DNA from: Eggerthellaceae bacterium
GTDB lineage: Bacteria; Actinomycetota; Coriobacteriia; Coriobacteriales; Eggerthellaceae
Reading direction: 5' to 3'
Length of the DNA stretch: 57,579 nucleotides
Assembly (NCBI GenBank): GCA_017511465.1
Contig: JAFWJU010000004.1
Location: forward strand, 1-57,579
Shown: positions 9,659 through 40,780 of the stretch, in pieces
How positions within the stretch are numbered: position 1 is the first letter of the stretch
How the letters are laid out: the number at the start of each line of letters is the position of its first letter
Notes under the pieces: model-generated
Database searches by the model: none
What the model was told of the DNA's origin: nothing
Seen by the model: the letters and a program-made list of their open reading frames with translations, nothing else
Program-made: the position numbers and the translations under genes

Positions 9659-9705
9659 GCTGAAACTCTTTCCAAATACGCTCGCCCTCTTCAGCTGTTC
9701 TCGCT

Positions 9706-9810
9706 TCGGGGTGCCCGAGCCCCGCCGAACGCTCGAGGCAAAAATCGCTCGAGCCAAGGTCTCTCAACGATTTTTGCTTAACCTCGCGTTTCGGCAGGGC
9801 TCGGCATCCC
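9706..9810 (-). repeat. hairpin element, family B, copy 1
   Basis: On the minus strand the arms (about 40 nt, imperfect) pair around a 9-bp stem CAAAAATCG/CGATTTTTG (9768-9776 and 9739-9747). A 20-nt loop with core GAGAGACCTTGGCTC (9751-9765) closes it. One arm has an extra TTAAG after GAGG (9777-9781). The same loop and bulge occur at 40661-40769 with different stem sequences. It lies between trpP and the first ECF ATPase gene. Confidence 0.7.
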
Positions 9811-9828
9811 GTCAAACGAAGCTGCTGC

Positions 9829-9845
9829 TTTCACTTAACCTCGCT
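9829..9845 (-). repeat. partial family B sequence next to copy 1
   Basis: The minus strand reads AGCGAGGTTAAGTGAAA, identical over 17 nt to the left arm of the family B element at 40661-40769. Its own partner arm and loop are not recognisable, so it looks like a fragment between trpP and the full element. Confidence 0.55.
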
Positions 9846-9879
9846 CTCGGCGAAGCAGAGCCCTAAAACATGGACCCTG

Positions 9880-10540: not shown

Positions 10541-10588
10541 AAAAGGCCTGTCCTTTGCAACCCCTTGCGGAGTTTCAAAGGACAGGCC
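10541..10588 (-). terminator. T-box-controlled terminator before trpP
   Basis: On the minus strand GGCCTGTCCTTTG pairs with CAAAGGACAGGCC and is followed by TTTTGATTT. It starts just 3' of the T-box antiterminator sequence, as expected for transcription attenuation. Confidence 0.88.
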
Positions 10589-13761: not shown

Positions 13762-13926
13762 GCAGTGGTGGGAGGGCGCCGCACGACCCTCTGAGGTTGC
13801 GAAGAGCGGAGGCGAAGCGGGAGCGAGGACTGTCTGAGCCCGCGAAGCGGGCGAGTTCCGCAGCTGCTTCGCCGGAGCAATGAGCGGTTAACCTCGGCGG
13901 GTCGTGCGGCGCCCTCCCACCACTGC
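13762..13926. repeat. large nested palindrome upstream of uvrB (element C)
   Basis: Outer arms of 28 bp (13762-13789 and 13899-13926) are perfect inverse complements beginning GCAGTGGTGGGAGG. Inside, further complementary pairs are nested in order: GAGGTT/AACCTC, GGCGAAGC/GCTTCGCC and an apical CCCGC-GAA-GCGGG. The minus strand includes GAGGTTAA, the box also seen in family B elements. The element fills most of the gap between two divergent genes, and its right arm covers the region where a uvrB -35 would be. Confidence 0.75.
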
Positions 13927-22830: not shown

Positions 22831-22853
22831 AGCTCCCCTTGTTCCCAAGATAA

Positions 22854-22892
22854 GCCTCGCTGCCAACGAAGGTTACCCGTTGGCAGCGAGGC
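22854..22892 (-). terminator. hairpin between the acyl-CoA synthetase fusion gene and the PH operon
   Basis: GCCTCGCTGCCAACG and CGTTGGCAGCGAGGC form a perfect 15-bp stem with a 9-nt loop. On the minus strand it is followed by TTATCTTGGG, a weak U-run. It ends about 23 nt before the YdbS-like ATG, so it may act as an attenuator of that operon or as a terminator for the gene upstream. Confidence 0.6.
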
Positions 22893-22928
22893 TGTAAAGA
22901 AGGCAGGTTGAACTGCGTGCGCACGCTG

Positions 22929-23021
22929 GGCTGGTGAGGGTGTCGGCCGCTTGCGCAGGCATCATCCTTACGTTTTCTAAAACGTTTGCCGAGCAGCCGT
23001 AGGACGACACCCTCACCAGCC
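22929..23021. repeat. hairpin element, family A, copy 1
   Basis: Perfect 17-bp outer arms GGCTGGTGAGGGTGTCG (22929-22945) and their complement (23005-23021). Inside are the conserved boxes GCCGCTTGCGCAGGCA (22946-22961) and TTTGCCGAGCAGCCGTAGG (22985-23003). The apex is a separate ACGTTTT-CT-AAAACGT hairpin. The same boxes occur at 28475-28541 with unrelated arms. It lies 15 nt past the stop of the acyl-CoA synthetase fusion gene. Confidence 0.75.
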
Positions 23022-37399: not shown

Positions 37400-37656
37400 G
37401 CGTGCACTTGGTAGGGTTTTCAACCACCACCCTTCACGAGGGCCCGTATTCCATGTGCTCAAACGTTCACTAAATAGAGTTTTCTGCCAATTGGAATATT
37501 TCGTGGCAGAGATTCCTGAAAAATGCACGCTATCCCGCCTCACTGAGCGTGCATTTGATGGGGTTTTAAGCCATATCTCCCTTGGTAAGCGTGCACTTGA
37601 AAGAGCTTTCAGCCACGAAATATTCGAATTGGCAGAAAAGCCCGTGAAGTGCCCAC
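37400..37656. repeat. phased array of six 27-nt imperfect repeats between efp and aroB
   Basis: Units at 37400-37426 (+), 37463-37489 (+), 37504-37530 (-), 37547-37573 (+), 37589-37615 (+) and 37630-37656 (-). Each begins with a GCGTGCACTT-like box and ends with a TTTTC..CCA-like box. The last five start 41, 43, 42 and 41 bp apart, about four helical turns, with 14-16 nt gaps. Two convergent pairs have complementary spacers, giving a 28-bp inverted repeat with one mismatch (37480-37507 and 37612-37639). No ORF of note lies here. Confidence 0.8.
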
Positions 37657-40603: not shown

Positions 40604-40660
40604 GGCCCCGCCTTCCCCTGTTGTACGTTAAATTGGATTGTATATCAGTGTCGCGTTGAG

Positions 40661-40769
40661 CAACGGTCAGATGGGGGGAGGGCGAAGCGAGGTTAAGTGA
40701 AATTTGTCGAGAGACCTTGGCTCAAGCAGATTTCACCTCGAGCGAAGCGCTCCCTCCATCTGACTGTTG
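40661..40769 (+). repeat. hairpin element, family B, copy 2
   Basis: Outer arms of 23 nt starting CAACGGTCAGATGG (40661-40683) pair with the right end (to 40769), with 3 mismatches. Inside: GCGAGG with an extra TTAAG (40693-40697), the stem TGAAATTTG/CAGATTTCA (40698-40706 and 40727-40735), and a 20-nt loop with core GAGAGACCTTGGCTC (40709-40723). The loop and bulge match copy 1 at 9706-9810, while the stems differ yet still pair. Confidence 0.75.
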
Positions 40770-40780
40770 TCTCTTAACGT

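Follow-up and report, generated by a model that had tools for sequence, protein, structure and literature searches.

Dispersed intergenic hairpins of Eggerthellaceae with a conserved core and arms of free sequence

Two intergenic sites in a 57,579 nt stretch of DNA from an Eggerthellaceae bacterium (GCA_017511465.1, contig JAFWJU010000004.1, positions 1 to 57,579, forward strand; the whole stretch is called the window here) carry hairpins which share two short conserved blocks on stems of differing sequence. A preliminary description took this combination as the product of selection on a folded RNA or single-stranded DNA (ssDNA) and tied it to the trpP-ecfA transcript. The locus raises the question of whether these hairpins belong to a family, which strand is folded, and what keeps the fold.

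Two copies and their architecture

Copy 1 is located 5' of an ABC transporter ATPase gene, copy 2 between the divergent genes for chorismate synthase and a protein annotated as RuvX. Their features are as follows.

Copy 1
9697..9814, minus strand: whole covariance-model match, short form (90.9 bits, E 1.4e-19)
9790..9811, minus strand: left outer arm, 5' on the motif strand, CGGGATGCCGAGCCCTGCCGAA (direct reading and fold)
9777..9786, minus strand: conserved left box CGAGG plus TTAAG bulge (putative G.A-type pairs, from sequence)
9768..9776, minus strand: inner stem, left strand, CAAAAATCG (reading and fold)
9748..9767, minus strand: conserved apical segment, TTGAGAGACCTTGGCTCGAG (direct reading)
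9739..9747, minus strand: inner stem, right strand, CGATTTTTG (reading and fold)
9707..9729, minus strand: right outer arm, TTCGGCGGGGCTCGGGCACCCCG (reading and fold)
9834..9846, minus strand: adjoining partial copy, left half only, with a second left box GAGCGAGGTTAAG (seen in sequence)

Copy 2
40658..40780, plus strand: whole covariance-model match, short form (109.4 bits, E 5.5e-24)
40661..40683, plus strand: left outer arm, CAACGGTCAGATGGGGGGAGGGC (reading and fold)
40688..40697, plus strand: conserved left box CGAGG plus TTAAG bulge (direct reading)
40698..40706, plus strand: inner stem, left strand, TGAAATTTG (reading and fold)
40707..40726, plus strand: conserved apical segment, TCGAGAGACCTTGGCTCAAG (direct reading)
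40727..40735, plus strand: inner stem, right strand, CAGATTTCA (reading and fold)
40747..40769, plus strand: right outer arm, GCGCTCCCTCCATCTGACTGTTG (reading and fold)

Direct reading bears out what had been described for this pair. The apical loops are identical in 18 of 20 nt, and the TTAAG bulge directly follows GAGG on the 3' side in both copies. The inner stems differ yet pair, with one T.G in copy 2. The outer arms bear no likeness to each other and pair within each copy over about 22-23 bp. The notion of a 20-nt loop holds for its conservation, not for its being a free loop: GAG/CTC pairs and one C-G pair extend into it, and in a long form of the element an entire additional hairpin occupies its place. 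A pseudoknot of the apical loop with the left box (GACCTTGG with CCGAGGTC) is unsupported given the long form and the variants in genomes G160 and G031.

The genome from which the window stems is a 1.89 Mb draft of 129 contigs. It holds ten exact copies of the 15-nt apical core GAGAGACCTTGGCTC and two with one mismatch. Chance can be excluded as their origin, because 0.004 exact matches are expected in 1.89 Mb and the reversed control pattern, with two mismatches allowed, gave at most one match. All 12 copies are long hairpins of one architecture with mutually unrelated outer arms, which pair well in 11 of them; the copy on contig C95 is decayed. From the outside inward a closing helix, its letters different in each copy, leads to GNA/GNA, then to GC-GAGG/CCTC-GA-GC and to TTAAG, followed by an inner stem of variable letters and the apical segment. 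Short and long forms are both present, in two cases side by side and head-to-head. A covariance-model search, proposed at the outset, returned further copies in this genome and in relatives, nearly all with stems that pair in different letters; neither of the outcomes that would speak against a folded family, a lack of further copies or copies with unpaired stems, was seen. The motif strand forms one long hairpin with a closing helix of free letters, an invariant G.A-rich internal loop region and an inner stem. In the short form, to which both window copies belong, a short loop caps the inner stem; in the long form an additional hairpin does.

Other hairpins were seen in the window and in relatives. 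At 13762-13926, near a gene start, perfect arms of 28 bp enclose a branched 109-nt core with GGTTAACCTCGG, possibly a different element family. A nearly perfect 29-bp inverted repeat (TTTTCTGCCAATT.GAATATTTCGTGGC) with a 104-nt core at 37480-37640 is unrelated in sequence to the element. Long hairpins at 22853-22893 (16 bp, 9-nt loop) and 22929-23021 (17 bp, 59-nt loop) adjoin each other. In a relative, two perfect palindromes, AATGAGTCGCAGG...CCTGCGACTCATT, lie 5' of ruvX (L038); the palindrome AACGAGYCACTTTGAC in G010 near L190 resembles them and is perhaps part of another covarying hairpin family.

Distribution and covariation of the family

The hairpins belong to a family of intergenic repeats that had not been listed before, and the observation is larger than first stated. 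A pattern search located the element in the window's own genus (g1) and in two others (g5, g66). Of 137 Eggerthellaceae genomes, 25 from nine genera gave matches to a covariance model (R1) built from 35 copies, with up to at least 26 copies per genome. Among 296 genomes sampled across the class all 11 clear carriers are Eggerthellaceae, with two borderline matches elsewhere; within the class the family is essentially confined to Eggerthellaceae. Of 396 genomes in a phylum-wide sample, the window's own was the only one with a conserved 17-mer of the long form, in an exact-match test that is blind to short forms. Phage, plasmid and viral searches gave no element; viral contigs which matched short patterns fail the covariance model.

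In total, 96 copies were gathered from several genera. The element measures about 110-190 nt, its closing helix 17-36 bp. The long form, with its additional hairpin inside the apical segment, makes up the majority of copies in g1 relatives and in genomes G125 and G122. Its core is near-invariant: GAGGTYAAGCCAAAGGAG ... GAGAYCC[hairpin]TTRGCTC ... CGACGACGCGNCGAG. The short apical segment GAGACC-TTGGCTC equals the long-form motif minus the hairpin.

The claim of selection on a folded single strand, RNA or ssDNA, had been drawn from a fixed loop and bulge on changing, complementary stems; the covariation supports it. In set A1, 89.6% of the pair cells are paired compared with 52% after shuffling and 38-45% after sliding, and all 17 pairs have changed doubly. 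In the long-form set A4, 94.4% are paired compared with 72% after shuffling and 31-46% after sliding; double changes affect 33 of 40 pairs, the inner stem and the additional hairpin included. As both structures were derived from the same sequences the slide control is biased in their favour, yet the gap is still very large. The copies are not independent either; there are paralogues, partial copies and possibly gene conversion of cores.

Orthologous copies point the same way. Between G005 and G010 about 8 of 21 arm pairs of one copy have changed, and every change is compensated; the loops are identical and the non-coding flank has strongly diverged. At a second orthologous site the core is kept in four species while the arms are mutually unrelated but pairing. 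Such covariation shows that the folded shape is preserved, and with it selection on the folding of the motif strand.

Folded strand, mobility and gene context

Three observations identify the motif strand as the strand that folds. First, helix-internal mismatches comprise 58 G.T and 26 A.C (p 0.0006), and 31 and 11 without the genus Slackia (p 0.003), in copies which are not fully independent; G.T and A.C are about equal when all mismatches are counted, and the stricter helix-internal count was used instead. Secondly, in RNA fold prediction the motif strand comes out as the more stable of the two strands for 80 of 96 copies. Thirdly, the conserved GA/GA sites, which lie between C-G and G-C, read TT/AA in many G160 copies, exchanges as would be expected for tandem sheared G.A pairs. 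G.U makes up about 3% of the arm pairs and A.C is not rare. By the general yardstick of RNA helices that evolve freely, such a share of G.U is low. The element would more likely act as RNA than as ssDNA.

The family has probably moved. Copy number ranges from 0 to at least 26 within a single genus, copy number and position vary between species, and at argG-argH the element is present or absent depending on the relative. The G122 copies have spread recently and have arms in common; core and arms thus travel together. Conserved boundary triplets flank the arms: in g1, GTA precedes and GGACA follows them, and in g5 and g66 they are followed by GTCC. No enzyme that could mobilise the element was found.

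Two genomes display larger arrangements. In G122 (L307, L308, L326-L333) the element resides in a multi-hairpin composite repeated at many loci, with CCGCAGATCC.../...GGATCTGCGG upstream and terminator-like and GTGCCGCC/GGCGGCAC hairpins downstream. In G014 (L310, L311, L312) left halves and right halves are tandemly duplicated and appear nested.

The most serious competitor, to which we give perhaps one chance in five, is that the hairpin is an ssDNA substrate of an HUH/Y1-type enzyme (RAYT, IS200/IS605-like) or of another structure-reading recombinase, as with REP/REPIN. The arms would then have to pair, since folded ssDNA is what the enzyme recognises. In agreement with this, the arms are compensated and contain few G.U pairs, the copies are dispersed and frequently form inverted pairs, and the boundary triplets are conserved. 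Moreover, 70 of 137 Eggerthellaceae genomes carry Y1_Tnp genes, in many of them as a single copy of about 300 aa; the RAYT-like proteins are about 250-310 aa long and mostly number one or two in a genome, e.g., G000:C129:6006-6338. But the four Y1_Tnp loci inspected showed no element within several kb, G007, G009 and G004 have no Y1_Tnp, and none is among the matches listed for G160, a genome with 24 elements; a RAYT partner is thus unsupported. In the same complete genome 18 of the 24 motif strands run opposite to the lagging-strand template orientation used by IS608-type ssDNA elements, the origin being placed at the contig ends where dnaN is located and the terminus being assumed opposite. 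One G160 element (G160:C1:2261594-2261716, L159) lies just 5' of dnaN, near the replication origin.

Somewhat less probable is the absence of any function, with arms held complementary by template switching during replication (quasi-palindrome correction) and cores homogenised by gene conversion. The arms are nearly perfect Watson-Crick with both G.T and A.C rare, the inverted neighbours at L299 have the same arms around different cores, partial copies occur in tandem, and the window holds other, unrelated long perfect hairpins. Against this stand the excess of G.T over A.C, which persists without Slackia, and the retention of G.A motifs, apical segments and boundaries in orthologous copies despite diverged non-coding flanks. 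The usual fate of neutral palindromes, furthermore, is loss.

The gene context was assessed with heuristic ORF calls. The elements are intergenic, and neither context nor orientation is fixed: 30 lie antisense and 9 sense between tandem genes, 17 between convergent and 12 between divergent genes. Of 71 cases, 49 have the 3' end of the motif pointing towards a stop codon. Sense copies at tandem-gene sites are not rare if the window's own genome is taken alone. The assertion that orientation follows the transcript holds for copy 1 in the trpP-ecfA gap, not for the family, with its preponderance of antisense over sense copies and 29 in convergent or divergent settings. A role tied to the trpP-ecfA RNA is unlikely in view of the mixed orientations and of copy 2 between divergent genes; a regulator specific for trpP-ecfA is not supported. 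The ORF 5' of copy 1, called trpP at first reading, has no Pfam match, possibly owing to the chosen start. When the site upstream of ruvX was compared across relatives no second copy was found there. A terminator- or attenuator-like hairpin, GGCCTGTCCTTTG...CAAAGGACAGGCC followed by TTTTGATTT, lies 5' of the trpP ORF (10545-10588, minus strand).

These data bear on the idea of a dedicated cis-regulatory RNA (leader or riboswitch-like) or of a small-RNA gene family, which we consider improbable. It would account for the strong covariation, the invariant core and the terminator-like hairpins a little 3' of several G122 copies. Yet context and orientation are not fixed, and copy number is highly variable. 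Sigma70-like promoters are not enriched 5' of the elements, which therefore show no mark of being dedicated RNA genes. Rfam 15 gave no match in the window at the gathering threshold, and a low-threshold scan of five element-bearing loci gave chance-level matches only, outside the element. The hairpins are not intrinsic terminators: no T-run directly follows on the 3' side, and the right flanks read GGACA, GTCC and similar.

That the core was inserted into pre-existing hairpins such as terminators, or duplicates its target inversely on insertion, so that the arms are host sequence, would fit identical cores with unrelated arms and the bare 11-bp palindrome of G001, a species without core at one site, but is already largely refuted by the typical arm lengths (24 bp in many G008 and G014 copies) with conserved boundaries, the common arms of the G122 copies, an empty argG-argH site devoid of a palindrome, and the compensated substitutions in orthologous arms.

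Known repeats and the best explanation

A literature search found no description of the family. Closest in kind are stem-loop repeats of the REP/BIME/ERIC/bcr1 type (PMC3733652, PMC3116915, PMC2267715), from which the long, sequence-free arms and the conserved core set this element apart. Like REP/REPIN and BIME (GTAG-/CGTC-tagged) it is a dispersed extragenic palindrome that recurs many times in a genome, frequently in inverted pairs and near gene ends, with short conserved motifs at the hairpin foot and a transposase that is not always obvious (PMC3733652, PMC3116915). REPs are 20-40 bp long with stems of 5-13 bp (PMC3733652). Here the closing helix of 17-36 bp is free in sequence, most arms are unrelated rather than forming a small palindrome with a conserved stem, the conserved part is an internal core, and neither linkage to RAYT nor elements flanking the inspected Y1 genes were seen. 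Many g1 copies have GTA before the arm and g5/g66 copies GTCC after it; to the GTAG/CGTC tags this is a resemblance only, as the tag's G or C is paired.

ERIC and bcr1 likewise are intergenic repeats of 100-170 bp which form a long hairpin and are restricted to a genus or family (PMC2267715). With the structured RNAs of Rfam the element shares covariation, tandem G.A motifs and an optional hairpin domain; it differs by the lack of a family match and of a constant gene context or promoter. Set against ERIC and bcr1, most arms here have no shared sequence, covariation is extreme, and the core is unrelated. Integron attC sites also keep structure while sequence changes and carry specificity in unpaired features. 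Unlike attC, whose R and L boxes lie at the base, the element is conserved in its middle and tip; neither gene cassettes nor a cassette array were seen at the loci inspected.

The best explanation, to which we assign a probability of about 0.5, is that these are dispersed structured repeats of mobile origin, selected on the folded single strand, with RNA likelier than ssDNA. Such elements would spread on rare occasions, as small pieces of non-autonomous mobile DNA driven by an enzyme. A given copy would persist because its folded motif strand serves a purpose at its site or is held there in a functional state. Activity would arise when the motif strand is transcribed, probably as RNA rather than ssDNA, and this would explain the scarcity of sense copies between co-transcribed genes.

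A bolder proposal, which we regard as tentative, is that the element represents a structured nucleic-acid module of a new class, present in tens of copies per genome, each of them kept folded by compensatory change whatever the genes around it. Such a module could be a mobile RNA, in the manner of a bacterial SINE-like retro-element, or a site bound by a structure-reading protein. Most bacterial extragenic repeats are known by conserved sequence. The element described here is for the most part conserved as complementarity alone and consequently escapes sequence searches. The family offers a natural setting in which to ask whether bacterial hairpins of this dispersed kind are relics, mobile DNA or RNA with a function, in little-studied gut and rumen bacteria, and the 96 copies across several genera make the choice between RNA and ssDNA directly testable.
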